Below the pieces are notes generated by a model. That model saw only the letters and a list, made by a program, of their open reading frames with translations, was not told where the DNA came from and searched no databases. Shown in pieces: positions 1-63,393 of a stretch of 64,000 nt of DNA. Position 1 is the first letter of the stretch. Each line of letters begins with the position of its first letter. The DNA is from Berberis thunbergii (Eukaryota > Streptophyta > Magnoliopsida > Ranunculales > Berberidaceae), in contig QNQO01010682.1 of assembly GCA_003290165.1 (NCBI GenBank), forward strand, positions 1 through 64,000, in the 5' to 3' direction. The position numbers and the translations under genes are program-made.

Positions 1-307
1 CATAACAATTATTCTCGATAATACCACACTTACCGAGTAATGCCACGTCTTCTGGGGATTGGATCAAATTACACATCATGAAAGTATAGGATGCCATGCA
101 AGTGGAATTTCCATCACAACATTGCTCAGAAGCAATGAAGTTTCTCAAGAGAGACTCTGTTTGGGGATGAAGCGTAAAGGAGGGATTTGCATCTCACCAA
201 CCGACATATTGAACTCTATGTCCAAGAAGCTATGAGCATTACTATGTTTCTTAAAATTAACTCCTGCTCGTCCAAGCACCATAGCACATGGTATTGGTAC
301 ATATTTC

Positions 308-623
308 AAGAAAAGTTCATTAAGATGATGCTAACTGATGGCATATTCGCTATGGAACTCTTATACAGTTATAGTTTTGGGCAGGACGATAAACAAGGAA
401 ATGATCTTGTGGTTTATAAATGGAACTTGATGAGTTTAGCTCGTGACATGATATTAATCGAAAACCAACTTCCTATGAAAATTCTTAAGCGTTGTATGCT
501 ATAATCATGCGAAACCAACAAAATTCTAAACCACTAAGTAAACTTGCTATTCGATTCTTCAGTCCTTTGATGCCGATGGATGAAAGTTGTTTTGGAAAAT
601 ACTTTAAAACTAATGACAAACAT
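308..623 (+). pseudogene. DUF247 gene fragment, left arm of hairpin
   Basis: A fragment of a DUF247 (UPF0481) gene. The + strand encodes FIKMMLTDGIFAMELL, then SLARDMILIENQLPM, then after a frame change LAIRFF, the same order as in the full DUF247 gene at 12146-14011. A base missing near position 492 (compared with the inverted copy) shifts the frame, and the reading soon ends. No 5' half, start codon or C-terminal membrane segment is present. The piece is flanked on its right by its own inverted copy. It is a relic and cannot make a DUF247 protein, but it could be transcribed as one arm of a hairpin RNA. The DUF247 assignment rests on motif order seen by eye. Confidence 0.75.
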
Positions 624-963
624 ATTGCTTAGTAAATCAAGTAAATGTTTGCCATCAGTCTTAAAATATTTTGCAAAAACATTTTTCTTCCTCGACATCA
701 AATGACTGAAGAATCGAATAGCAAGTTCACTTAGTGATTTATAATTTTGTTAGTTTCGCATGATTATAGCATACAAACGCTTAAGAACTTTCATAGAAAG
801 TTGATTTTCGATTAGTATCATGTCACGAGCCAAACTCATCAAATTCCATCTATAAACCACAGGATCATCTCCTTGTTTATCATCCTACCCAAAACTATAA
901 CTGTAGAATAGTTCAATAGCAAATATGCCATCAGCTAGCATCATCTTAATAAACTTTTCTTTA
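308..963. repeat. Near-perfect inverted repeat of DUF247 sequence
   Basis: Arms 308-623 and about 644-963 are reverse complements with scattered substitutions and single-base indels (roughly 85-90% identity by eye). Positions 311 and 960 pair at the outer end; the inner ends are separated by about 20 bp. A transcript in either direction would fold into a hairpin with a stem of about 315 bp. This is the architecture expected of a hairpin siRNA source or a young MIRNA gene made by inverted duplication of a protein-coding gene. Transcription is not shown. Confidence 0.85.
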
Positions 964-1240
964 TCCGATTCAAGGGATTCAAAGTAGCACTTACGGACTG
1001 CATATTCCACCTCCTTGATGGCTTCAACACACTCCTCCAACCTTTCTTTTCCGTCGTTCATTCGAGAAAAATGTTTGTTGAGGTACCGCAACTTATTATC
1101 TTCCATTTCTGTTAAGACTTTGTCATCATGGTGAAGGGGCCCAATTGAGATCGTCTCAGGCACATATGCATATTTATTATCGCATAAAATTTCTTGTGAA
1201 CCCTGTTAGATACAACATCTGCCAACAGGAAAAATGGTGT
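644..1240 (-). pseudogene. DUF247 gene fragment, right arm plus extension
   Basis: Minus-strand DUF247 fragment, longer at its 5' end than the + copy. It reads a CCI-like start near 1225, then KYAYVPETISIGPLHH (the family's TPxVISIGPxHHG block), then KFIKMMLADGIFAIELF, then MSLARDMILIENQL, ending at LLDLLS beside the loop. At least three in-frame stops are visible: a TAA near 1205, a TAG at about 890 just after YSYSFG, and a TAA in the MRN-stop-QN stretch. It therefore encodes no intact protein. The inner 320 bp pair with the + copy. No start codon or promoter can be assigned. Confidence 0.75.
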
Positions 1241-6524: not shown

Positions 6525-6768
6525 TTTCTGCTCTCGCTCTCCCTTTCCCTCTCATCCATCTCCCCCCAACTCTCCCTCTTCCTATCCCACCACCGAAGCA
6601 GAGAAGAAGAAGGACGAAAGAAGGAGAAGAAGAAGAAGAAGTCCACTTACATACACTCGCAGTCTTCCTCAAGCACTCTCTCTCAAGTCGCATCGCGCAT
6701 TAACACCAGGTTCCTTTCTCTCTCATAGTTCTGCTCATCGATCTCCTGGCTTCTTAATTCTGAAAATT
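6525..6768 (+). pseudogene. Orphan copy of the Rx_N-DUF247 gene leader
   Basis: About 240 bp here closely match the leader (5' UTR exon) of the gene at 12146-14011. Shared blocks include CTCCCTCTTCCTATCCCAC, the GAAGCAGAGAAGAAG and AGGAGAAGAAGAAGAAG purine tracts, and a stretch ending CTGGCTTCTTAATTCTGAAA. Similarity stops within a few bases of the predicted end of leader exon 1 (11712), and no coding exon follows. A 52-bp tandem repeat beginning AGGTTTAAAAAAGGAAGG precedes it (6429 and 6481). It may be a broken second copy of the gene, or a copied promoter/leader. The open frames across it are not coding. Confidence 0.6.
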
Positions 6769-11489: not shown

Positions 11490-12145
11490 GACTCTCCTCT
11501 CAAGCCAGCAAGAATTTCTACTCTCCCTCTTCCTATCCCACTACCGAAGCAGAGAAGAAGGACAAAAGAAGGAGAAGAAGAAGAAGTCCACGTACATACA
11601 CTCGTAGTCTTCCTCAAGCACACTCTCTCAAGTCGCGTCGCACATTAACACCAGGTTCCTCTCTCTCTCATAGTTCTGCTCATCGATCTCCTGGCTTCTT
11701 AATTCTGAAATCTGTGAGTGAATTGATCTTTGATCGATTGGTTATTGGGTTTCCGCTAACTTTGCATTACTTTGTTGTCTTTGATCTGCAGGTGTTTCAA
11801 GTAACTCTCAATCTGTCCAGGTAACCTCTCTCTCCAATTTACGAACTTAGCATGTATTTTTTCGATCAAATTTATCTTACGGTCTTACCATGCCAAAAAG
11901 TTCATTTTTTTTATTGCGCTGTAAGATAGATTGGCGAGTTGAATTGGTGGGATAATTTTTTATTTGACATTCAGATTGTGTTGGGATCAAAATCAAGTTT
12001 TGGTATTTATCTAGATGTGTTTTCTCATTGCTTTTAGAGGCCCTTAGAAATGTACAATGTAATTGAGATACACTGTTTCTGTGAGTTTTTGGATTTTTGC
12101 TAATAAATTGACATTGCTAATTTGTTTTTGCAAAAGGAGGAGGAG
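11490..12145 (+). promoter_or_regulatory. Leader region of the Rx_N-DUF247 gene
   Basis: Predicted leader: an exon running to 11712 (donor GTGAGTGA), intron 11713-11791 (acceptor TTTGATCTGCAG), a small exon 11792-11820 (donor GTAACCTC), intron 11821-12136 (acceptor TTTTTGCAAAAG), then 9 bases before the ATG. The leader exon carries a GAAGAAG purine tract that is duplicated at 6525-6768. Splice sites are read by eye. The transcription start is not determined. Confidence 0.45.
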
Positions 12146-14011
12146 ATGGCAGGAGCAGATCAAGTAGTATGTCCATTCTTTGGAGTTGTGTTTGAAAGGC
12201 TCAACTCTTTAATCAACAAGGACCGGAAGGAACCTGGTCCATCGGCGGGTCTGGTGAAGGAGCTGAAAAAGCTTTACAAGACTTTCCTTAAAATCGAAGA
12301 AGTCCTTGATGATGCAGAGGAGCAGCAATTCGAAGAAAAAGCGGTTAGAGTACGGTTTTGGCTACAAGAGCTGAACGAAGCAGCATATGAGGCTGATGAT
12401 GTTTTTGATGAGTTTGAATATGAAGGTCTGCACAGTCTGGCCTCCCAAGAATCGAGCAGCAGCAGCTACAATGTTATCGACCAACTTTATTGCAAAATTC
12501 AAAAGCTCATTGAGATTTTTCATAATTTGGCCCAAGAATGTTCGGAGCTTAAACTGGAAAAGGGAAAGGAAAAAAGTGTGGTGACATCTCCGGATTGTAG
12601 AACTGATTCTCTCTTAGCTGAACCCCAAGTTTATGGGAGAGATGAAGACAGTGTGAAGTTGGTGAACCAATTCTCAGGCAGCAACCAGGAGAATATATCT
12701 GTTTTTTCAGCTGGTGGGTGCATCCGTAGAGTACCTACAAAATTCCGTGAAATCAATGAATATGCATATACACCAGAGGTTATCTCAATTGGGCCTTTCC
12801 ACCGTGATAAAATGGACTTAAAAGAAATGGAAGTGCATAAGTTGCAGTATATGAATTCACTTCTCTCTCGATATGAAGACCGGGCTACGAAATTGAAAGA
12901 GTGTGTTGAAGCCATCAGTAGGCTAGAAGACGAAGCTAGGAAGTGCTACTCAGAACCCATTGAACTTAACAAAGAAGAATTCATTGAAATGATGATAGTG
13001 GATGGTCTTTTCATTATTGAACTCTTTTGCAAGAATGCAGGGGAAGGACAAATAGATAAAGATGATCCTATATTTAATAATGTATGGGGCTTGGCAAGCT
13101 TGGTTCGGGACCTGATACTATTCGAAAACCAACTTCCAATGTTGGTTCTTGAGCGTTTGTTCAAGATCACCATGGCAAGCCAACAAGGTGTTAAACAGCT
13201 AAGTGAACTTGCTATCCGTTTCTTCAATCCGCTGATGCAAAGGGAGGAAAGTGTTCTTGCAAAATACTTCGAGACTGGAGGTGATCACTTACTTGACCTA
13301 CTAAGCAAGACCTTCTATGATTTCCCATCCCAACAATTGCCTCATGGGGTAAAGTCAGTGCAGGTTACAGTACCAACTGTTTTGATGGAAAGGGAGGAAA
13401 TTGTTGTCGAAAGAGCCCCATCTCAAGGTGAGATATCCACAAGTTCAACGGTGAAGTCGGAACCACAGCTAGAGTTTAAAGATGTACCATCTCTTACAAA
13501 GCTTCGCGACTCGGGAGTCAAGTTTAAGAAAGGTAACAATACACATAGTTTCCTAGACATAAATTTCAGTAACGGTGTGATAGAAATCCCTCCTATACTC
13601 ATTCGAGACCAGAATTTTTCTTTCATAAGAAACGTCATTGCTTACGAGCATGGTCTTGTTGGGCATCCTGCTCAAATGACATCTTATGTTGTCCTGATGA
13701 ATAACCTCATCCAGTCATCAAATGATGTGGCATTCCTCCGTGGACACGGAATAATCAGAAATTACTTGAGTGATGATGAACTTGTCTCCTCACAGTTTCA
13801 AAAGCTTTGCAATGAGATAAACCTTGCCAACTTCCATCATTCGAAGCTTTGCATTGATGTCAATGCTTTCCGTGTCACTTACATTCAGAAAGCAACTAGT
13901 GTACTGAAAAATGTATACAGGAGGTGGTGCCTACCAGGTGGGTGTTGCTTGCTGCCGGTTTACTTCTTACTTTCAATGCCTTCAAGCTCACTCTGTCAAC
14001 TACTGAGTTGA
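12146..14011 (+). CDS. Rx_N (NLR coiled-coil) - DUF247 fusion protein
   Basis: 621 aa from the ATG at 12146. Residues 10-135 are an Rx_N coiled-coil of CNL receptors, with LKIEEVLDDAEEQQF, VRFWLQELNEAAYEADDVFD and FEYEGL (the EDVID-like region). Residues 160-187 are the usual linker before NB-ARC (VYGRDED, then ISVFS). The P-loop that should follow is absent. From residue 190 the protein is DUF247: CIRRVPTKF, YTPEVISIGPFHRD, LVRDLILFENQLPMLVLE, LSELAIRFF, IPPILIRDQNFSFIRNVIAYE. There is no NB-ARC or LRR. Plant DUF247 proteins normally start near the CIYRVP block and end in a membrane helix. Here that helix is in the next frame (13930-14010). The function is unknown; Rx_N mediates oligomerisation and partner binding in NLRs, so a decoy or membrane-tethered immune role is conceivable. 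In-frame over 1.8 kb, so probably a real gene. Confidence 0.8.
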   Translation: MAGADQVVCPFFGVVFERLNSLINKDRKEPGPSAGLVKELKKLYKTFLKIEEVLDDAEEQQFEEKAVRVRFWLQELNEAAYEADDVFDEFEYEGLHSLASQESSSSSYNVIDQLYCKIQKLIEIFHNLAQECSELKLEKGKEKSVVTSPDCRTDSLLAEPQVYGRDEDSVKLVNQFSGSNQENISVFSAGGCIRRVPTKFREINEYAYTPEVISIGPFHRDKMDLKEMEVHKLQYMNSLLSRYEDRATKLKECVEAISRLEDEARKCYSEPIELNKEEFIEMMIVDGLFIIELFCKNAGEGQIDKDDPIFNNVWGLASLVRDLILFENQLPMLVLERLFKITMASQQGVKQLSELAIRFFNPLMQREESVLAKYFETGGDHLLDLLSKTFYDFPSQQLPHGVKSVQVTVPTVLMEREEIVVERAPSQGEISTSSTVKSEPQLEFKDVPSLTKLRDSGVKFKKGNNTHSFLDINFSNGVIEIPPILIRDQNFSFIRNVIAYEHGLVGHPAQMTSYVVLMNNLIQSSNDVAFLRGHGIIRNYLSDDELVSSQFQKLCNEINLANFHHSKLCIDVNAFRVTYIQKATSVLKNVYRRWCLPGGCCLLPVYFLLSMPSSSLCQLLS

Positions 14012-14112
14012 CTCTGGACCCTTATCTTTTCAATTGGCAGAGATTAGATTTTCTCAGTCATGTACTTTTAGGAATTATTCTTATTGTAATGTTTTGGTGT
14101 GGTTCTTATTAA
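13924..14112 (+). other. Out-of-frame remnant of DUF247 membrane helix
   Basis: In the +1 frame relative to the fusion gene the DNA reads PTRWVLLAAGLLLTFNAFKL, which fits the P-W-x-hydrophobic C-terminal anchor typical of DUF247. In the main frame the sequence becomes WCLPGGCCLLPVYFLLSM and stops at 14009-14011. A small indel near 13915-13930 would explain this. The altered tail is itself hydrophobic and Cys-rich, so membrane attachment may persist. Confidence 0.6.
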
Positions 14113-14790
14113 AGGGCTTGAATGTAATTTAGTCTATCTTATTATTAATTGCATGAAGTGTGACAAGTATATGGCTCTTTTTGTTTAGTGAATGTTGAAA
14201 ACCAGGTAATGTACTCTAGTTCAAACTTGACCTTCATCAAGCATATTTAGGACATTCATCAAGCATATGAAAATGGACCTTTTAAAATTGCCAAGAACTT
14301 GTCTCTTGTCTGCAATGAGTATGGTTGGGATAAGGAATTGAAACTTTTATTGAGTTCCATCCCTTAAATTTTCACCTATCTTCAGTATTTGTCTGACCAT
14401 GTCATTCTAATGCTGTCTAAAAGTCTAAATATTTATTGAGTTCCATTGAAGTTGCAATGTCGTAGAAATACATTTCTTACTGCAAGGACCTGTGTATCAC
14501 TCCATTCGCGAATGCCATTCATATTTATGCATACTTCACCAAAAAACATATCTTAATCACATGCATTGACCGATGATGATTTCTTATGTTTATGGAGTAC
14601 ATTAGGACTGAGATTGCAATATCACAAGAAGTCTGTATTTACTCAATATGAGAAGCATTACTTGGCTGCCTCAATTACCCTTTTCAAAAATTTCCATGGT
14701 TTTTATTTATTTTTATTTTTAGAGATATAACTTCAGAGAATATTACAAAATAAATGTAAGTTGTATGCAATGGCACTCTTATTGTTACCT

Positions 14791-35649: not shown

Positions 35650-35669
35650 TAATTTATGAGTTTACGACA

Positions 35670-38092
35670 AGTTCACATCGACTTGCATCCATATTGTTTA
35701 TGGCGTATTGTGCCACATCGGCTTGACCAATGCTCTAGCTACGTTTTGCACCCTTATGAATGGTCTGTTCCGTCACCTTCTGGACAAGTCCGTGGTCGTC
35801 TATCTTGACGATGTTGTGGTTTATAGTGGGACTATAGAAGAACACCTACATCATTTGCGAGAAGTGTTCCAAATCCTTAGGGATAATCATCTCTTTGTCA
35901 AAAAGAAGAAGTGCTCATTCGGCCAGACCCAAATCAATTTCTTGGGTCATGTTATTGGTAGTGGCAAGATTCAGATGGACATGGAAAAAGTCAAGGCAAT
36001 CCATGATTGGAACACTCCTAAGAATGTGTCTCAACTATGTTCTTTCCTTGGACTCGCAAACTATTATCGTCGCTTCATAAGGGACTACTCTAAGAGAGCT
36101 GTTGCACTGACAAATTTGTTGAAACAAGACCGAACATGGGAATGAGATAGGCAGTGTGAAGCTTCATTCCAAGACTTGAAACTGGTCATGATGAAAGATC
36201 CAGTATTGGCCTTTCCAGACATCACCAAGCCCTTTGAAGTACAAACAGATGCATCTGATTATGCCTTAGGGGGAGTTTTGCTTCAAGATGGTCACCCGGT
36301 AGCATATGAGAGTCGAAAGTTGAATGATACAGAGTCTCGTTACTCAGTTCAAGAAAAAGAATTGTTAGCCATTGTACATTGTTTACAGGTGTGGAGACAC
36401 TATCTCTTGGGATCTCAAGTCCTTGTTAAAACAGATAATGCTGCAGCAAGCCATTTCCTTACTCAGAAGATGCTAACTTCCAAGCAATCTAGATGGCAGG
36501 AAAAATTAGCAGAATTTGACTTAGTATTGGAATACAAGCCAGGGCGCACTAACATTGTAGCTGATGCACTCAGTAGAAGGGCAGACCTTGCAGTGCTAAC
36601 CCATACCGGTCCGAGTCACACCATCTTGGAGAAGATCAAAGCAGGCTTACAGACAGACCCACAAGCGAAGGCGATTACAGAGTTGATCAAGCAGGGCAAA
36701 ACTCGACGGTTCTGGATAAAAGATGGAGCAATACTCACAACTGGTAATCGCCTCTATGTTCCAAGAACTTCTGGTTTGAGGAAAAAAACTTTTGAGAGAA
36801 TGCCACGACACCCATTGGGCGGGACATCCAGGTTGGAGACAAACACTTGCATTGCTAGAGAGGGGGTACTATTGGCCGCAGATACAGGAGGATGTAATGG
36901 CCTATGTTCAAACATGTCTTATTTGCCAGCAAGATAAGGTTGAAAGAGATCGACCAGTAGGCTTACTAGAGCCTTTGCCTGTTCCAACTCGTCTTTGGGA
37001 AAGTGTTTCCATGGACTTCATTATTGGGTTACCGAAGATGGAGGATTTCAGGTGTATCCTTGTAGTTGTTGACCGATTCTCAAAGTATATGACTTTTGTG
37101 CCGACCAGACTGACTTGCACAGCCGAAGATACGGTGCAATTGTTCCTCAAGCATGTAGTGAAGTATTGGGGACTGCCCGAAAACATTGTTAGCGACCGTG
37201 ATGCTCGCTTCACAGGAAAGTTCTGGAAGAAGTTGTTCAAGCTCCTGGGATCCAAACTTAATATGTCGACAAGCCAACATCCCCAATCTGACGGACACAC
37301 TGAGTGCTTAACTCTATGCTCGAAGAATACCTTCGTCATTTTGTAAGTGCAAATCAAAAAAATTGGGTGGGACTACTTGATGTTGCACAATTCTGTTTCA
37401 ACTTACAAAATAGCTCAACTACTCACTCCAGCCCCTTTCAGTTAGTCACTGGTCAACAACCATTGATACCACATACAGTGCTTACCGGGTACCAAGGACC
37501 CAGCCCAAGAGCTCTTGAATTTGTCAAAGCCTAGCAGAAAAACATTGAAGTTGCTCGAGCCTATTTTGAGAAAGCATCCCGTCACATGAAGAAATGGGCC
37601 GACAAGAAACGATAGATTGATCATTTTGAAGTCGGGGACTTGGTATTGGCGAAGCTAGATATGTTCAACAAGTATAAACGGACAGCTAGAGCACACAACA
37701 ATCTGTTTCGCAAGTACGAGGGACCGGTACAGATTATTGAGAAAGTGGGCAAAGTCTCATATCGCGTCAAATTACCACATTGGCTCCGTTTCACCCATCT
37801 TGTTTTCCATGCAAGTAACTTGAAGTCCTACCATGCAGATGTCACTGATCCCACAAGAAATGTATTTGCCCGAGCATTGCCTAAGCATCCTACTAAGCCA
37901 GATCGAGACGTGGAAGAAATCTTAGTTGACCGCCTCATCAACAACACAGGCCCGGATATAGAGTATTTGGTCAAGTGGCAGGATGAGCCTCCTTCAGAAA
38001 TCAGTTGGGAGCCAGTCGAACATCTGCTGCCTTACCTCTCAAAGCTGGAAGAGTACTTGGAAAAGTTCGATGTGAGGGCATCAGCGAATTGA
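35670..38092 (+). pseudogene. Chromovirus pol (RT, RNase H, integrase, chromodomain)
   Basis: Order: partial RT with GLTNA and [10 protein letters not shown] (catalytic DD, 35800s); RNase H with FEVQTDASDYALGGVLLQDG and PGRTNIVADALSRR; integrase HHCC (HDTHWAGH ... CLICQQ), MDFIIGLPK, SDRDARFTGKFWKKL and a TE glutamate near 37300; then a chromodomain (VEEILVDRLI ... EYLVKWQDEP ... SWEPVEHL, about 37910-38060). Lesions: W-to-TGA at 36143; a frameshift in an A-run near 36781-36788; a lost base near 37303; TAG at 37532; TAG at 37613. The RT also lacks its fingers region. The protein cannot be made in one piece. Confidence 0.9.
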
Positions 38093-39756: not shown

Positions 39757-42700
39757 TTATAAAGAAAGGATTATAACTACAAGGGAAGAACTCAGTAAGA
39801 CAAGCCAGGATGAACTAATTCCACAAAATTTCCTGGACTTCTGTATTCTAAATACACTAGCTATTATTTCTATAAATAGCTTCATAATAGCGAAGCATCC
39901 AATTATGAAGCTCGCTAGGAATACGGCCAAACCCTTGTTCTCCATGTGAACTTGGTTGACTCGCACTCTCTCCACATCCGATCTGCAAAATTATGGCTAT
40001 TGTTATTAGCACTCCTAAAAAGCCAAGACTCTATATGGTCAGTTTATAATACAATTACGCAGTTTGCAAGCATGTGTATACTAGCAAGCATAAAAGCAGA
40101 AAACACTAGCAAGAACAGTAAAAACAGAATACTCCGATCCCTTAGTTCTCCTAAAGAGAGGATGGTGTGCTTCTCTAATCGTGCTTAATTTCCGTAAGCA
40201 GTCTGCATCTGCTAAAGATGTAGCCTAAATAAATGATAAAAGAAGCTCTTATCTGCATGCTTCTTTTAGTCACCCTTTTTAAATTATCATTTTCATAGGC
40301 CCGAGATTAATAATGAAGATTGTGTAATATTGCATACATCACAAACTTGAGGAAAAAACTACTATAAAGGTAAGCCAAGCACCTCCTACCAAAACTAGAT
40401 AACATTAGGAAATTCCTAATTGTACCGGTCCCTGATTTTCTGCCTGAACCCGTATCCAAGCATATAACTTTTCCAATTTACAAGTTAAGCTAACTTTTGC
40501 AGAATCTAACTTTTCCAATTTACGTGTTAAGCTGGAATAGGTCCTCAGAATCTATCAATATTATTTCTCCAAAAACACTGGTAAAAAATGGAAAAACTAG
40601 ATATAAGGAAAACCTGAAAGGAAATTGATCGTTTCTCTTCCCTAAATGAGTTAATCTGATATATCTATAAATTTTCGAAGTTATGGCACAATAACTAATT
40701 TTTGTGTACTGTGTCCATGTCTATCAATCAATACTTGACTTTTTTGTTCTGGTGGGGAAAGTGCTTGGTGCACTAACAAGATTGAAGAAATGGTTTTCCT
40801 AAGATCTAATCATCGTAGGGGCACCATGTAGATATGTGGGACTTATTGCCATGTGATTCGCATGCTCTCGACTTTTTTTTTTTCCTAGTGGGGAAAGTGC
40901 TTGGTGCATCAACAAAATTGAAGAAATGGTTTAACTAAAATCTAATCATCATAGGGACACCAAGTTCACACCATATCGATGCTTTTAATCATCTAATAGG
41001 AAAATCACATTCCAATCGGTGGATGAAGATGATGAGTAGTGCTTGTCCAAGCAAAAGAGGCAGGCATACACCAAAGACTGACCACCCACCTTTTGTAGGC
41101 CAAATACCTCAAACCCAGAGTATCATTTTTAAATGTTGCTTGTTCTCAGAAGTAACTCAAAACAGTTTTTGCCAATGGTGTTATGGTCGAGTGGTTAGGG
41201 CTGTGTGGGTTTATCCCCCACGTCCTAGGTTCGAGACCCGCCGACGGCATGGTTACTTTCTTATGGTGTTGACCTATAGGTCGCACTTTGTTGATAGGTT
41301 ATGGGATCCTATAAAAACTCAGCTCACTTTCCAAAAAAAAAAAACTCAAAACAGTTTCCAAATCAATAATCAATTCCATTTACTGTTCATCATGCAAATG
41401 ACAAAAAATTAAACACAAAATCAAAATCAAGCTAATGGGACTTTTGTTTCCCTGATTAACTCATATTATTCACGCTTTTTAATATTTTCACATCTCTAAC
41501 TAGATGAAAGAGGAAAAACAAATACCTCCCAAGTGTAACACAAATCAATCAGCTAGTTTCACTCAAGAGCTTGGTTTCACACACTATATGTATAAAGGCT
41601 AAAGATAATAAAACGTTCTTACATGAGTGAAGGATAGGTAACTTTTTTTTATTTTAAGATGTAACGCCACCAACTAGTAAACCATTTACATGTAACATCG
41701 TGTTTGTTTTTGTAAAATATTGATCACTCCATCAAATGAATGACATAAAAGACATTTAAACGTTGCAAATCCAGAATTTTCTGAGGCTAAATCTTGTGAA
41801 TTGAACAGAGGTCAAACAAGTATTTTTCTTTAGGAAGCAAAAATATGACTAACTGCCACATAACTTCATCATAAAAGAGTAATTTCTATACTGAGCATGA
41901 GCACGTGAGGAAGGGGTGTGTTGGGGGGTGGGGGCGGTTAATGCAGCATTATCCTATGATGCGCAAAGAAATGTTAGGAGGGTATGAAGTTCAAGTAATC
42001 AGTTCTCACCTGAGAATTGCATTATCTCTGGCTAGACTATCCATTTGCAAGGAAACAAGGGATTTCCATGCCACGAGATCTTCTACATCTTTGGCCTGTC
42101 AACAACAGAACAATAAAATGACTGTCCCCACAAATCTAACAATCAACTAAAAAATGAAAGAAGAAGATACGTACAATAACCTCAGTGCTTTCAGCAAAAC
42201 TCTTCATGTCGGATTTGATTTGCTCCAGAACTATTTCTGTTGCATCCATTTCATCATCGATTTCTTTGAAAATGTTTCCATATCGGGAATTGAGTTCTTC
42301 CAAATAGCGTTCCAATATAGCTAAATTTAAATCAAGGGATCGGACTTTTTGCATTAGTATCTTAAGAACAGTATCTCCAGGCATCCTTCCAAGCTGCTGA
42401 GGTCGCGTTTCTGTAACAACATTACCGAAATTGCCTTTTTGGGCCTCAGATTTCACATTAGGTTTTTCAGGTTGAGAAGCATTATCATCCACAAGATCGT
42501 CACGAGACTCATTCCCAACAATGGGCTCTAGTCGTGTGGTCTTAGGTGTCTGATTGGTTTCAGTTTCTTCAGTTTCAAGCGTGTGATCTTGAGCAGAAAT
42601 CAAATCCTCCAGCATTCTCTCAACAGCATCCACTCCATATACTTCCAAAGCACTCAGCGTGCAATAGAACTCAGACCCATAGTGACTCAACAGTTTCAGA

Positions 42701-45700
42701 TTCAAATACCTCACCCATTGTGGCTCCTGAAGAACAAACCTTTGTGCGTGCTTCACATTTCCAGCAGTAAAATTCCCAAGACTAACCCACTTGTGTGTTG
42801 GATAAACCATACTGCCTAGCAGCTCAAAATCCTTCAAGTTTGAAGAGTGATGCTCAAAGTTTCCTATTTCAATGGTATCCACTAAAGTTTCTTCCGAGAG
42901 TTCAATGACAACAAATTTTTCTTCAGCAGAACATGGGTTCCTGAGGTACTTATCCTTGTCTTTGCCTAAGATGTTAGATGCGCCCTTTGCCTCCTTGTTA
43001 AAACCCAAGACTTTTGCTCCCTTTGCAGCAGAAGCATAATTGTACTCTGCCCCACCAGTTTCTAACCTGTGTATAATGGCCTGGTCCGTTGAGGTCTTCC
43101 CTTTAGGACTGCTTGCTCTGCCTTTGAATTCGTCAAGAGCAAGTGGTACTGAACGAGATAGCCTCTCACTTTTGGAATAATCCTCAAGTTTTACTCCTAA
43201 ATCAGGGGGTTCCACCTCAACTTGCTCTTTGGTAGAAGATAAATTGTTTTCATTTTTTTCACCTATTGGTGACTCGCTACTTTCAAGCTCTGTGACAGAG
43301 CTTGAAGTAGAAGTACTCGGATCGGATTCCTCGGAACCCGCATTTATATATGAAAATTCAGCTCCACTGTTGGATAAATTACGTCTCATTTCAGTTTCAC
43401 TCCAAGTCGATTCATCTACAACAGAGGACAATTTAAATTGTTAAGCAAGCAAGGCAATATATATTTAAGGCCATCACTTCAAAACAAATAAAACTGTTAT
43501 TAAGTTCTATGAAAGAAATCAAATTGAACACTTACGAAGAAACATTCAATAGGGAATCAGCTGATATAATAATATTGCAAGAATTTGTGTCATAGCCTCA
43601 TAAGAATAATTTGAAAGGGTAGCTGAAAATCCATCAAGCCAATCATCAGTGATTAACAACTAATGTCGTTCAAGCAATAGGATTGTGCACTGGAGACACG
43701 GCATCTGACACAGCAACATGGAAGCATTCAACCGCTTAGGATGTCTTAACATGCTAATTATTTTCGGTCTCTAGAACTTTTAGTTAGTTAGTTTTTGAGT
43801 ATTTATTTATTTCCAGTGTGAGCTTTTTTATGAAAGTTTATGCTAAGGTAGAAATTTAGGATCTTTTATTTTTTCTATAAGAGCATTCACAGTCCTCTGC
43901 AATGTCAATTGCCAAACACATTTCTAAAGTCCTCTGCAACGTCAATTGCCAAACACATTTCCAAATACTGGTTTGATATAATTTTTCAAACTCTAATTTT
44001 AGCAAATGACTGTGGATGCTCTAACAGATTCATTGTAAGCAATTTCAGTTAAGGGTGCGGATGATTTTTTTTTTCCATGCAAAACCCTGAAAATAGTGAA
44101 GATGACAGAAAGAAACAAAAAATTTCATCCAATGATGATGAAGATAACCATGTTTCTTGAGTTTTCCATGGAAAATATTCTTAGTTTCCTAGAAAGTTTC
44201 TTTCCATGATATTGAAAGAACATAGATGGTGGAACGTCACATATTTCATTCTCACACCCATCCCTTCTCTCATCTCTTCCATGAACTCTTCACTAGTTTT
44301 ATGTTTTCTATGGAAAACAATGAAACACACCCCCTATGAGCTGAAACTTGAAAGTTGTGTTTTGGAAGAAAAATAATGAACTTTTCGGTTGCATTGAGAC
44401 TACACCATCAAAGTGGGTGGATCACACACACAAAGACCTGCATGCACATACGTTTTCTTGGTGACGGCTGCTCATTCGTCAATACCACCATCATCCCGAG
44501 GGGTGGAATACGTGGCGAAGGAAACCCAATTGATGGTGATGATGCTGCTGCTGATATTGAAGTCGAAGATGATTAATAAACATTAGTTGTGCATGGACTG
44601 GCTATGGAATCTTTTCTTTTGACTTCTTTGGGATGTTTTATAGTTATGTTTTTACAAATGCAGATAGTTTCTTCTTTACTACTTGTTACAATAGTATACA
44701 CATTGATATTTTGATAAGTAATATGCCTATTCTTTAATCAAATGTTACCCCGAAGGGATTATTTATGGAATCGGCAAAATAATTCTGATTATCCCCGAGT
44801 AACTCGCTACTTGATCCATAATAATTGACAAGTTGTGGAGTTTCAAACCACAATAATTTTTTTTTTGTCTCAACAGCCAAAAGATCCTGACCCAGACCAG
44901 AACCCTTGCTTCCACGTCATCCCCGTACAATCAATGTGAGCAACACCATGTTGTCTTCCATAATTAAAAAAAACCACCAAACTATTATTGAGCTAAAATA
45001 AAATAAATAAGAGTAAGACATAAGGTGGTATAGAATCAAGGATTTCTTCGCCTTAACGGATGCATTGTAAAGGAAAGAGATTTTATAAAGAGCGCTCAAC
45101 AAAAGCTGGATGTTCTCATGCTGTTGCGCCAAAGCTATGCGCCTAATTCTCCTCCACTTATCTTAAGGCACTACGAGATTCGCCGAATAGTACTCGTGAA
45201 TTTAGCATTAATGCTTAAATGCCAAATCAGACCAAAATACAAAAATCAGGAGAAGAAGATGATTCTGATCCAGAAAAAAGACAAATTGAGTTCATAAAAG
45301 ACAGAAAAACAAGGAATACCAATGGAGGTTGAAGTACCCGTCATTGAGTAAGTACCAATTCCACCACTGGTAGAATGGTCGAAATACTGAAGAAATGCAC
45401 AGGTTCTTCGTTGAGACCTTCAGCGTTGAAAGGAGAATGTGACCAGTTTGGTTCTTCAGTTTTTGTGTTTGGTTCCTTCAATGGTCCAACTGAAACAACC
45501 AATGATTTTGAAACTTTGTGGGCATTGATCCATGATACGTTTATAAATATTTGATTCAATTGGATGAATGTTTTCAATATGAGCTTTTGGAAGTGTCAAA
45601 ACATGTCGGAGTTCTGAGCTTCTTTGAGTAATCATTTTCAACTCGACGGGGCTAATCTCCTTAAAGTGGGAAACACCAATACGAAAGCATGCATGAACCT

Positions 45701-56244: not shown

Positions 56245-58936
56245 GCCCAATGCTTTTGTGAAAATGTCAGCGAGTTGCTTTTGTGAAAATGTCAGCGTCA
56301 CACCACCCATGTAACTGCATGTCACATTTACTACTCAAATGTATACCTTGACCTGGATTACCTTTTAAGTACCGAACCACCCGCAAAGCAGCTTCCCATT
56401 GGTCCGCCCGAGGATGTTGCATAAATTGAGATAAAACATGAACACTATAAGATAATTCGGGTCGAGTGAAACACAAATAAATTAGCCGTCCCACCAAGCG
56501 ACGGTAAGGCTCTGGGTCAGCGAGCTCTGGACTCTTGGACATGGCGAGTCAATGATTCTGTTCCAATGGCACCGCCGCGGACCTTGCCCTTAGCAATCCG
56601 GCCTCAGAGATGATATCTAGCGCGTATTTGCGTTGACAAAGCACAAACCCATCTGGTCCGCGTGCCACTTCAACCCCCAAGAAATACTTTAAAGGACCCA
56701 GATCTTTCATATGGAAACAAACACTGAGGTAACCCTTGAATTTCTGTATATCCCCCGGATTACACCCAGAGATGATAAGGTCGTCGACATAGACAAGAAC
56801 ACTGAGCTGAACCGCACCTCTTTGTAGAGTAAACAAATAATAATCTGAATAAGATTGCCGAAAACCATAATTCTTCAAAGCAGTTGATAGTTTAGCAAAC
56901 CACCATCGGGGTGCCTGCTTCAGCCCATATAATGATTTCCTAAGCTTGCACACCTTTCCAGAAGTCCCCACCTGAAAATCGGGTGGTAATTTCATGTATA
57001 CCTCCTCCGTAAGGTCACCATGTAGAAATGCATTATGAACATCCATCTGATGGACTTCCCAATTCATGGCAGCCGCAATGACAAGAAAGACCCTTACTGT
57101 AACCATCTTAGCTACTGGAGCAAAAGTCTCTGTATATTCAACTCCTTCAATTTGATGATTTCCAAGAATAACCAGCTGAGCCTTCAATCGTTCAATGGTA
57201 CCATCAGAGTTATACTTGATCTTGTATACCCACTTGCATCTTAGAGCTTTCTTTCCTGGTGGCAAGTCTGCTACAACCCAAGTTTCATTAATCTCAAGAG
57301 CCTCAATTTCTCGTCGCATGGCATCCCTCCAGCGGCTGTCTTTCGCGGCCTCAGAATAGCACACAGGTTCCCGATTTGCTGTCAAGGCTGCAAGAAAATG
57401 TCTATGTCGCATAGAAAAATTATCACAATTCACATAATGTGCTATAGGATAGGGTGTACCTGAGGAATGTCGTGGTACGGGTGAAGCTGGTACGGATGGA
57501 CTCATTTTCCGAATGGTATGAGTAACATAATCACGGAGTCGTACCGAGGCTTGCCTCTACGTTGACCCCTGCCCAACACATCTTCCTGACTTGCGTCCAG
57601 GTTGTCCTCCTGGTTCGCACAAGCCGGTTGCCCAGCAGCCTCATCTGGTTGTACAATCACCTCAGCACCAGCATTTGCCCCATCCTCGGCACATGCCGAC
57701 TGCCCAACAGCCCCATCTGGTTGTACAAACTCCTCAGCACCCCCCCTCAAAACAGCCGTAGATGTCTCCTCAAAGTCCTCGTGAACCACATCAATATTAG
57801 GCAGACCATCATGGTCTAAATTAAAATGATCTGTAAAGGGAAAAACTCCTTCCAAGAATACAATATGACAAGAAACAAAGAAGTCTCGTTTCTCCAAGTC
57901 ATACAAACGCCATCCCTTTTTTCCATAAGGGTACCCAACAAAACACACCTTCGACTTCTACTGGCAAACTTATCCCCCGTCTGTACATGCGCATAACACA
58001 AGGACCCCAAAATGCGCAAGTGATCATAAGTAGGTGTGCTGCCATATAGAACACTATAGAGTGTTTTCCCATTCAAGACCAAGGAGGGAGTCCTATTTAT
58101 CAAGTATCCAGCCGTCAACACACATTCTCCCCAAAACTCAATAGGAAGAGAGCCTTGAAAACGCAGCGCCCGAGCTATGTTCAAAATATGTTGGTGTTTC
58201 CGTTCAACCCGCCCATTTTGTTGAGGTGTTCCCACACAAGATATTTGAAAAACAATCCCCGTGATCAAGAAAATATTGTCGCAGGTAAGTGAATTTAGTG
58301 CCGTTATCACTCCGCAAGATTTTTACCTCTTTATCAAATTGTCTCTTAACCATCGAAAAAAAACATTTGAAGAGTATGAGAGACCTCTTTCTTATCAACA
58401 AGTAAGTAAATCCATACAGCACGAGAAAAATCATCAACAATGGTTAAAAAAGGTCCCCATACATCAGTGTGAATAAGTTCAAAAATGGTCGTAGCTTTAT
58501 GTTCACTAATAGGAAACCTATTTCTACTTTGCTTTGCCCTCTGACAGACATCACAATTTTTATTCAAGCGATTTTTCGTTTCACTAAAACTTACTTCAGG
58601 AACTAACTTTGTTACTTGTAGAGATGGATGACTCAGTCGCTGGTGCCATAAATCAAGATACACCACATTATTGGACTTTATTGCGTGAACCTGTGGCAGC
58701 CCCCGGAAGAAATAGAGTTCATCCCGTTGTTCACCCGCACCAATCAGCATCCTCGAAGTACGGTCCTGTATAACACACATATCATTAGTGAATTGGACAA
58801 AACAGTTATAGTAATCAGTCAATTGCGACACAGAAATTAAATTGCAAGTTAGCCCTGGCACATAAAGAACATTTTTCAAACAGAAATTTCTTTCAAGAGT
58901 GGCGTTGAGCCACTGATCGGTATTAGTGTCTGCCAC
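56245..58936 (-). pseudogene. Ty1/copia pol: integrase, RT, truncated RNase H
   Basis: GAG-pre-integrase region (LKNVLYVPGLTCNLISVSQL); integrase zinc motif HQRLSH ... CDVCQRAK; HTDVWGPF runs straight into LTIVDDFSR, so about a dozen residues usually between them are missing; LRSDNGTKF; PQQNGRVERKHQ. RT has [27 protein letters not shown] and the catalytic YVDDLIISG (about 56780). RNase H begins YRRLVGRLIYL ... GWCDAD and then jumps to the terminal IFTKA, with the catalytic part deleted. Several frame changes separate the open stretches. The protease motif (D-S/T-G) is absent upstream. Confidence 0.9.
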
Positions 58937-59970
58937 TGATCGGTATTCAACCTAGGCAGTGGAGATGTATCTGTCTCGGTCACTCCTGCCCCAGCAGAAC
59001 CTGTTTGAGCAACGTTGGCACGATGTGTACCCTTGGTTCCTCGACCACGGCCTCGAAGACTTGACTGCCCTCTACCGCGACCAGCACCAGCACTTTTCCC
59101 ATCGCTTCGGGGTCGGTCACCCCACCATTCCGGATATCCGTGCAAGGCAAAATAATTGTTAGATTCATGCCCCGTCCTTTTACAGTGTGAACACACCGTA
59201 CTAGATTTATCCTTTTCGCCAAGACAGGTCCGTGTGGCAAGGGCCATAATTTCCCCGCATTCTTCCTTGCCGCGAGCGATTTTCTTTACTCGCTCCTCTT
59301 GAATGAGAATTGAGTATACCTTGTTCATGTTTGGCAACGGATCTTGAGCCAATATATTGGATCTCACTGTTTTGTACAAATTGTCATCCAAACCCATAAG
59401 AAACAAATGTACTTTTTCTTCCTCCTGTTTTTTCTCCAGAATCGAAGCGAGATTGCATGTACACTTCCTGCACTTGCACGTCGGTAATTGTTCGAAATTA
59501 CCTAGTTCATCCCAAAGTTGCTTGAGTCGCCCATAGTAGTCCATTATGGTCAGCCCCTTCTGTTTGCAATCTGCAAGATCTGATTTCAGTTGTTGAATCC
59601 GTGGTCCGTTAGTAATGGAGAATCGATCCTTGATATCATTCCAGAGATCCTGCACTATTTCCACATGAGAGATAGTGGAGCGTAGCGTAGGTTCGATGAT
59701 ATTTCGGATCCAGGACACCAAAAGCGAGTTGATAGTCCACCAATCTTCGAGGTCTCGTGACTGCTCGCCAGGTTGTGTGATAGTTCCGTCAATGAACCCG
59801 AATTTCTTCCGGGCCCTCAAGGCCGTTCGAAACGAACGAGCCCATTCATCATAATTGTCTCCTTTCAATTGAACCTAAGTAATTGAAAGTCCGGGATTAT
59901 CAAGGGAAGTGATGTCGTAAGGTGAAATCGTCTTCCGAGTTTCACCAGTAGAGACTTCACCGCCAGCCAT
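58876..59970 (-). pseudogene. Ty1/copia gag with zinc knuckle
   Basis: ATG at 59970 (MAGGEVSTGETRK) with a stop TAG at 59877-59875 before KGDNYDEWARSFRTALRA, the start of the UBN2-like gag domain. WDELGNFEQLPTC and NMNKVYSILIQEERV follow. The knuckle reads CSHCKRTGHESNNY where the family has a fourth metal ligand Cys, so the CCHC motif is broken. A Gly/Arg-rich stretch follows. The frame ends at the deleted protease region. Confidence 0.88.
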
Positions 59971-61709: not shown

Positions 61710-62936
61710 TGTAAAGAATTGTATTGAAAATATCATTTTTCTTTTTATTGAAATAGAATACAAGCTTATATAGAGCTAACTTTGACATAACCTAATAGAA
61801 ATAGAAAACCTAACAAACTTAGGAAACCAAAATACAATAGGAAATCTAACCAAAATTAGGAAACCAAAATACAATAGGAAACCATACACTAGGAAACCTC
61901 CCAATCCAAGGAAACAAATTACTAGCCATCGGAAATTTCCTAACCCCATAAAACTTCTAATCCCATAAAACTTGCAACACAATATGCTAAAATATATTTT
62001 CCTAACAATAGGATGTATTTCCTAATACTGAAAGATATTTTCCTAACAATAGGATGTATTGACTTCTATTCTCTAACACCCCCCCGCAAGCTGGACATGT
62101 AGATGCAGACAAAATGTGCAGCTTGGAGGAAACTTTGAAGTCCTATTTGGTGAAGAAATCATTATCGTCGAGTCTGGACGAGTCCTGGTATTGCTCAATT
62201 CGAGTGGTATTGCTCAAGTCGAGACAACACAGATTTTGGTATTGCTCAATTCGAGTGGTATTGCTCAAGTCGAGACAACATAGATTTTGGTATTGCTCAA
62301 TTTGAGTGGTAGAGCTCAATTCGAGACAACATAGATTTTGGTATTGCTGGCCCCCCCTCCTTGATTGAATTGCAGGTTGGCGGCGTGTTGCTGATATGCA
62401 TGAAGTTGTTGTAGAGTGCAATTTCCCTTCAATTTAGTTGAACTTTGTTGTCGAGGATGTTTCTCCTGCTGTCATCCCTCCCCCGCCTCTTGCATAGTCG
62501 TCAGAGGCGGGGAAGAGCTTGAATCTCCAGAGTCTTAGGTCACCAAAGAAAGTAGCCCTGATACCATGTAAAGAATTGTATTGAAAATATTGTTTTTCTT
62601 TTTATTGAAATAGAATACAAGCTTATATAGAGCTAACTTTGACATAACCTAATAGAAATAGAAAACCTAACAAACTTAGGAAACCAAAATACAATAGGAA
62701 ATCTAACCAAACTTAGGAAACCAAAATACAATAGGAAACCATACACTAGGAAACCTCCCAAACCAAGGAAACAAATTACTAGCCATCGGAAAGTTTCCTA
62801 ACCCCATAAAACTTCTAATCCCATAAAACTTGCAACACAATATGCTAAAATATATTTTCCTAACAATAGGATGTATTTCCTAATACTGAAAGATATTTTC
62901 CTAACAATAGGATGTATTGACTTCTATTCTCTAACA
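61710..62936 (-). mobile_element. TRIM-like LTR element inserted in the UGT
   Basis: 1227 bp: LTRs 61710-62078 and 62567-62936 (TGTAAAGAATTG ... CTCTAACA, very few differences), internal part only 488 bp, target duplication CAGGG at 61705-61709 and 62937-62941. On the minus strand the primer site TGGTATCAGGG abuts the right LTR (62556-62566), and a GCGGGGGGG polypurine tract abuts the left one. No gag or pol. It meets the definition of a terminal-repeat retrotransposon in miniature, or a strongly deleted element. The near-identity of the LTRs points to recent insertion. Confidence 0.95.
62188..62340. repeat. 51-bp tandem repeat inside the TRIM
   Basis: Three imperfect units containing GGTATTGCTCAATTCGAGTGG, each followed by TATTGCTCAAGTCGAGACAA-like sequence. 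Open on both strands; the minus strand gives a repeated QYQNLCCLDLSNTTRIE (17 residues). No known domain. Confidence 0.85.
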
Positions 62937-63393
62937 CAGGGCCATGTCAACTCCATGCTCAAGTTATCTGAGCTCCTCGCTCTCTTTGGACTACACATAA
63001 CCTTTCTCAATACTGAGTACAACCAAAAAAGCCTACTTCATTTTACCGATACTGGAACCCGATTCCAAAGCTACCCCAAGTTTCAATTTGCAACCATCAG
63101 TGATGGTCTTCCTGTGAACCACACTCGAACTTTTAGTGATCTAAAGGATATGATGCACAATAATCACACTGTTGTGCAGCCAAGTTTGCGAAAAATGTTC
63201 TTGGAATGCCTGAAATCCTCCAAAGGTCCTCCAGTGACATCTATAATAACAGATGGGACATTGACCTTTGCGATTGATGTGGCAAAAGAGCTGGGAATTC
63301 CTTCAATCAATTTTAGTACCACTAGTGCATCTCATTTCTGGGCTTGTTACTGCATTCCTAAAGTGATAGAATCTGGCGAACTTCCATTCAGAG

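Follow-up and report, generated by a model that had tools for sequence, protein, structure and literature searches.

The window analysed here is a 64-kb (64,000-nucleotide) stretch of a Berberis thunbergii contig with zero N, and it carries on its forward strand an open reading frame (ORF), 12146-14011, that begins with an ATG at 12146, is already open from 12107 and closes with a stop codon ending at 14011. A Pfam search placed an Rx_N domain at residues 14-101 of the encoded protein (E 1.2e-15) and, in the same frame, a DUF247 domain at residues 193-591 (E 4.4e-100; profile positions 1-382 of 401), and found neither an NB-ARC with P-loop nor an LRR in the ORF. A first-pass annotation had read a full Rx_N domain and DUF247 in one open frame, with no NB-ARC between the coiled-coil (CC) and DUF247, and the domain search bore out both points, the DUF247 match being nearly full. 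No stop interrupts the 591 codons between the ATG and the last residue of the DUF247 match. The ATG at 12146, at the front of the CC, is the sole in-frame one before 12812 and leaves the DUF247 core with no other usable start. When three CNLs from the plant's own genome were compared with the whole 64-kb window, the CC was the sole match at E up to 1e-3, and a full CNL of Mercurialis annua (P0121) gave beyond the CC only chance-level pieces (best E 0.35). The features of the locus are collected in Table 1.

Table 1. Features of the chimeric locus and of the related DUF247 copy in the window
Feature	Position	Strand	Basis
Putative 5' leader of the chimeric gene	11520-11710	+	93% identical copy at 6569-6765; splice-like sites
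CNL-derived segment (leader-intron 3' end, start codon, coiled-coil, linker to pre-P-loop strand)	12119-12706	+	blast against CNL-type loci
Coding portion of the CNL segment	12146-12712	+	Rx_N E 1.6e-16 for that stretch alone (Pfam)
Rx_N domain	12185-12448	+	Pfam
EDVID-like motif DDVFDEF	12395-12415	+	motif reading
VYGRDED	12629-12649	+	motif reading
Join of CNL and DUF247 sequence	12706-12711	+	paralogue similarity from 12707; acceptor score
DUF247 domain	12722-13918	+	Pfam; 93.6% DNA identity to C3318 over 12707-14229
Out-of-frame tail in place of the hydrophobic C-terminus	13925-14011	+	paralogue comparison, hydropathy, codon-position GC
Broken DUF247 paralogue, rearranged (inverted, partly duplicated pieces)	11-1205		internal stops; no adjoining CC

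Elsewhere in the window, a SUN-domain exon lies at 42139-43440 on the minus strand (Sad1_UNC E 9.9e-34). Its two top hits by E-value in the protein collection, from Aquilegia and Tetracentron, are each 64% identical, as would be expected of an early-diverging eudicot whose own proteins that collection lacks. Polyprotein frames at 56270-59874 and 35660-38089 were assigned by eye as Copia-type-like and Gypsy-type-like, respectively, the Copia-like stretch being flanked by repeat pairs of about 127 and 94 bases. A direct repeat of 370 bases with 98.7% identity (61710-62079 and 62567-62937) may reflect a small insertion or duplication of recent date. The broken DUF247 paralogue at the window's edge extends farther on a second contig, C1610, where it covers profile positions 1-399 with six stops inside.

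Origin of the two halves and the predicted product

To trace the CNL side, the CC was searched against the plant's own genome (2.24 Gb in 11,732 contigs), which yielded at least 150 matches (150 scored of 1028 candidates), the window locus and C1610 included; outside these two, the top match by score was on C703 at 73% identity, and one partial match among the 150 scored reached 76%. The next 28 loci excised in this search (L036-L063), referred to below as CNL-type loci, had a P-loop motif behind the CC in 16 cases, as judged by script, and by blast all 28 matched window positions 12119-12672, or most of them, at 78-84% DNA identity. This similarity starts 27 bases 5' of the ATG, in the CNL's own 3' splice-site region, and for that reason suggests that a first coding exon of a CNL may have been taken along with its start. 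DUF247 was found beside none of the 28 CNL-type loci within flanks of about 1.5 kb, and none of the 30 top-ranking other DUF247 loci, out of 108 matches, had CNL sequence within similar flanks (about 1.5 kb). The block upstream of the ORF, of about 190 bases, occurs a second time ~5 kb farther upstream, with neither a CC nor DUF247 behind that copy before the gene itself, and it had no match in the 28 CNL-type loci with their flanks of about 1.5 kb; from its splice-like sites we infer that it may be the leader of the chimeric gene.

From 12707 onward the window matches a small DUF247 clade, and the native N-terminus of that lineage is gone; the N-terminal segments of 45 DUF247 homologues pointed to no convincing native N-terminal exon in the window. 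A protein-collection search with the ORF protein retained 125 relatives among 7997 scored candidates. Among the 120 listed, none is a CC-DUF247 protein (no Rx_N in the Pfam column), and they cover at most 74% of the query (62-69% for the ten best). These ten best listed homologues, 46-50% identical to the query, come from Macleaya, Thalictrum, Tetracentron, Aquilegia, Coptis, Ranunculus and Papaver. Residues 1-192 searched against the same collection gave a single match, the CNL of Mercurialis annua.

In an AlphaFold model of the ORF protein (14-row alignment, mean pLDDT 68, pTM 0.55), the CC forms four helices over residues 8-142, with 10-residue mean pLDDT values of 47-73 over residues 11-140 and a mean pLDDT of 61 when the CC was modelled alone; the linker at 137-189 falls under 50, and DUF247 lies at 73-97 apart from a low-confidence loop at 394-448. 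A phmmer search of the PDB with the whole protein found no chain at E up to 1, and a PDB search with the CC gave weak matches to RGA1e (E 0.4) and MLA13 (E 0.62), both ranked under unrelated chains. Sequence search of the PDB likewise found no solved DUF247 structure, the family profile giving one chance hit. Foldseek returned no match at E up to 0.001, a fold search with residues 1-147 returned unrelated helical bundles and nothing useful, and hmmscan assigned the short linker alone to no family.

The join and its second copy

At the point where CNLs of this genome read ...NQGNISVFPI(L/Q)GMGGLGK, the window reads ...NQENISVFSAGGCIRRVP. The last CNL-side bases of the window encode NQENISVF, corresponding to NQGNISVF in the CNLs, and the exact string NQGNISVFP occurs in four own-genome loci (L044, L045, L052 and L053). 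The earlier identification of an ISV strand of the kind that leads to the P-loop was thus right by comparison with the plant's own CNLs, and the switch falls at 12706/12707, where ...TCTGTTTTT on the CNL side is followed directly by TCAGCTGG... on the DUF247 side. Of 237 candidate matches to a genome probe spanning 12500-12850, 40 were scored: 34 cover the CNL side alone, four the DUF247 side alone (C3318, C4245, C4720 and C907), and two bridge the join, these being the window contig and C1610.

The join also carries a 3' splice-site-like sequence with its first exon base at 12711, whose acceptor score, calculated with approximate weights, places it 37th among the window's 7571 AG sites, both strands counted. 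Its T-run comes from the CNL coding strand and its TCAG from the DUF247 coding side, which opens with the same stretch that is coding in C3318, and the acceptor-like site was probably created by the join itself. Because the site is strong, splicing could differ from the continuous frame. A second acceptor-like site, at 1218 on the minus strand ahead of the broken DUF247 paralogue, prompted the idea of an ancestral intron at the join, which was dropped because the C3318 coding sequence runs straight through.

Contig C1610 is probably the other haplotype of the window locus, since the two are collinear over 14.4 kb, and their 14,362 aligned bases differ by 65 substitutions and 58 indels. Its join and C-terminal tail are the same as in the window. 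Its CC is identical apart from a one-base deletion at window position 12244 that stops the frame from the ATG, and this deletion could be a real change or a sequencing error.

Related chimeras and the condition of the gene

CNL-DUF247 chimeras are present at three or more loci of this genome. On C4245 (L064), a single frame holds an ATG, an Rx_N domain (E 2.2e-14), about 110 residues with a native DUF247 N-terminus at their end (DIQSNKQDLASIKGKLDSRSPSSSSAGWC) and DUF247 profile positions 1-251, after which the frame is lost inside DUF247 through a deletion. On C3318 (L033), a single frame continuing past the 5' end of the contig (C3318:1-2065) holds NB-ARC profile positions 160-219 of 248 (E 9.3e-11), a linker partly common to C4245 and DUF247 profile positions 1-397. 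The DUF247 of C3318 is intact and keeps its hydrophobic C-terminus, and the start of the contig cuts the gene. Of the loci seen in this genome, C3318 is by its sequence the strongest candidate for a functional NLR-DUF247 gene. The DUF247 lineage retains its native N-terminus on C4720 and C907, which look like fragments and have no CNL sequence in the 1.2-1.3 kb fetched from them; further partial copies of the clade are listed on C5823, C94, C89, C5771, C8088, C485 and C1.

The DUF247 halves of the window, C1610, C4245 and C3318 form one clade (SH-aLRT 100). The chimeras may stem from one join followed by internal deletions or from more than one. The CCs of the window and C4245 pair in the CC tree (77/95, not firm), but their dS of 0.56 lies far above the 0.12-0.18 of the DUF247 halves (Fisher p 2e-6, with site counts rounded by hand), and this contrast points to separate captures or to later exchange.

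Near 13922 the window is one base shorter than C3318 and C4245, as is C1610, and by comparison with these two paralogues the conserved hydrophobic C-terminus is missing from the ORF through a frame shift. Hydropathy over the best 19-residue stretch reaches 1.44 in the tail, whereas C3318 has 2.22 and 11 homologues range over 2.23-2.98, and the codon-position GC pattern is lost over the tail, which comprises 28 codons only. An alternative frame of the tail aligned to homologues at a z of 0.6-0.9, which is not significant, and the frame was settled by the paralogue comparison; a putative intron at 13938-14040 was rejected, as it would leave the hydrophobic tail unrestored. The C-terminal hydrophobic membrane segment of the DUF247 family is absent from the window ORF, so a membrane DUF247 is not what this ORF would be expected to encode.

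For the DUF247 half, dN/dS was 0.42 between the window and C3318 (0.24-0.69, 95% limits) and 0.41 between the window and the broken local paralogue (0.26-0.62), and for the CC it was 0.30 between the window and C4245 (0.17-0.54). In the two youngest pairs, window/C1610 (four nonsynonymous and two synonymous differences in DUF247; 0.54, 0.09-9.00) and C3318/C4245 (0.72, 0.32-2.59), constraint was not detected, dN/dS being indistinguishable from 1. The measured constraint may predate the join; signs of its loosening are clear at the sequence level, and the chimera may be drifting or decaying.

Interpretation and comparison with known systems

The gene is almost certainly of chimeric CNL-DUF247 origin, as judged from the sequences on either side of the join. 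In it, a CNL's first coding exon, together with the start codon and the 3' splice-site region that belong to it, has been joined to the body of a DUF247 gene that had lost its native N-terminus. We propose that transcription would begin in the leader at 11.4-11.8 kb. It is reasonably probable that the transcript would be translated as a fusion of about 620 residues, and the product would then be a soluble CC-DUF247 protein with neither an ATP switch nor a membrane anchor. A function is plausible but putative. If the protein works, its likeliest role, which we put forward tentatively and consider doubtful, would be that of an adaptor or decoy whose CC docks onto related CNLs (at least 148 CC matches besides the window locus and C1610) and whose DUF247 part serves as bait or cargo. 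We read the locus as a chimera private to its lineage, which would at most serve as an adaptor or decoy without NB-ARC and may be decaying; the overall account, comprising a real chimera, a translated fusion, an adaptor or decoy role if the gene works, and perhaps drift, has in our judgment slightly better than an even chance of being correct.

There is a considerable, though clearly less than even, chance that the locus is instead a chimeric pseudogene, in which a real join yields a product without a role and the copies have been decaying after duplication among repetitive CNL/DUF247 clusters. The C-terminal frame shift on both contigs, the CC frame shift in C1610, the mid-domain deletion in C4245, the broken DUF247 paralogue nearby and the dN/dS of the youngest pairs all fit this reading, whereas the stop-free run extending from the ATG through the DUF247 match, the DUF247 dN/dS against C3318 with 95% limits below 1 (a constraint that may predate the join) and a window CC that has no frame-breaking change although its DNA differs by 16-22% from that of the CNL-type loci weigh against it. 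It is rather unlikely that the gene supplies a working part of an NLR-ID-like receptor, with DUF247 as an integrated decoy and the CC-DUF247 protein pairing with a full CNL: DUF247 is an NLR integrated domain in two plant families according to the passages cited below, and C3318 has NB-ARC sequence in frame with DUF247, but the window has neither NB-ARC nor LRR, and the order of its fusion differs from that of a complete NLR plus an extra domain.

Two further explanations deny that the halves form one protein or one locus. Splicing from a leader exon to the acceptor at 12711, skipping the CC, would draw on the high-ranking site TATCTGTTTTTTCAG followed by CTG, yet both elements of that site are accounted for by coding sequence of the two partners, and with no in-frame ATG between 12146 and 12812 an mRNA that skips the CC would have to draw on a further coding exon upstream; we regard this separation as very improbable. 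An assembly artefact at about 12700, which the first-pass annotation had raised as a concern, has nothing in its favor beyond the large, repetitive nature of the CNL and DUF247 families, and its likelihood is close to negligible, because the same join stands on two contigs that are 65 substitutions apart over 14.4 kb, and C4245 and C3318 carry joins of a similar kind.

Returning to the chimera as a translated fusion, if it is expressed, an NLR coiled-coil carrying DUF247 without an ATP switch would offer a direct test of the idea that NLR coiled-coils serve as portable docking modules. Even if it is decaying, one DUF247 lineage has been joined to CNL sequence at three loci, and the resulting natural series (CNL; NB-ARC remnant, linker and DUF247; CC, linker and DUF247; CC directly on DUF247) lies in one genome and is suited to studying how NLR chimeras form and decay. 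We think it distinctly unlikely, on the sequences at hand, that an early-diverging eudicot has evolved a protein class at three or more loci in which a CNL coiled-coil or front end is joined to one DUF247 lineage, with the window as its switchless cytosolic form; if true, such a class would link an intracellular immune docking module to the self-recognition receptor family of grasses.

The CNLs of the RPP13-like 1 type (P0121 of Mercurialis annua; L043, L053 and L062) share with the window the Rx_N domain, the EDVID-like motif, the VYGRDED linker and the start of the pre-P-loop strand, and differ in having the P-loop, NB-ARC and LRR that the window lacks. With DUF247 proteins (UPF0481; At3g47200-like; S/Z-DUF247) it shares the DUF247 domain over nearly the whole profile, but its native N-terminus has been swapped for a CC and its C-terminal hydrophobic segment lost. 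Members of this family have been treated as self-incompatibility receptor candidates (PMC9623065, PMC13033167), those of grass self-incompatibility are described in the cited text as intronless membrane proteins (PMC13033167), and a tandem expansion of DUF247 is reported for oak in the passage cited (PMC9018854). NLR-derived proteins without the whole switch, such as NRG1C and TIR-only proteins, can act in immunity according to the cited passages (PMC8116057, PMC12856790); the window product resembles them in being NLR-derived with an incomplete switch, as read from its sequence, and differs in that fusion of a CC to DUF247 is not described for them in those passages.

The closest precedents are the NLRs with integrated domains. 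For Malus domestica and Zea mays, DUF247 figures in a published list of the domains that NB-ARC proteins carry as fusions (PMC4759884), and a second source (PMC7905219) repeats this, stating that DUF247 has been reported at the C-terminal end of certain NLRs, so the earlier statement that no system with this architecture had been described was too strong. A full-text search of the open-licence literature returned no paper with PF03140 and PF18052 together, CC-DUF247 without NB-ARC is not described in the passages of the open-licence literature found, and a table in PMC11275508 has the two domains in separate proteins. The Malus and Zea proteins resemble the window product in combining NLR sequence with DUF247 in a single predicted protein; the former were picked for NB-ARC, with a non-canonical domain in the same protein, whereas the window, without NB-ARC or LRR, has its CC directly on DUF247, and NB-ARC sequence is kept by the paralogue C3318. 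NLRs with integrated DUF247 are thus already known from the cited passages, and what is new at this locus is the direct CC-DUF247 fusion without NB-ARC.
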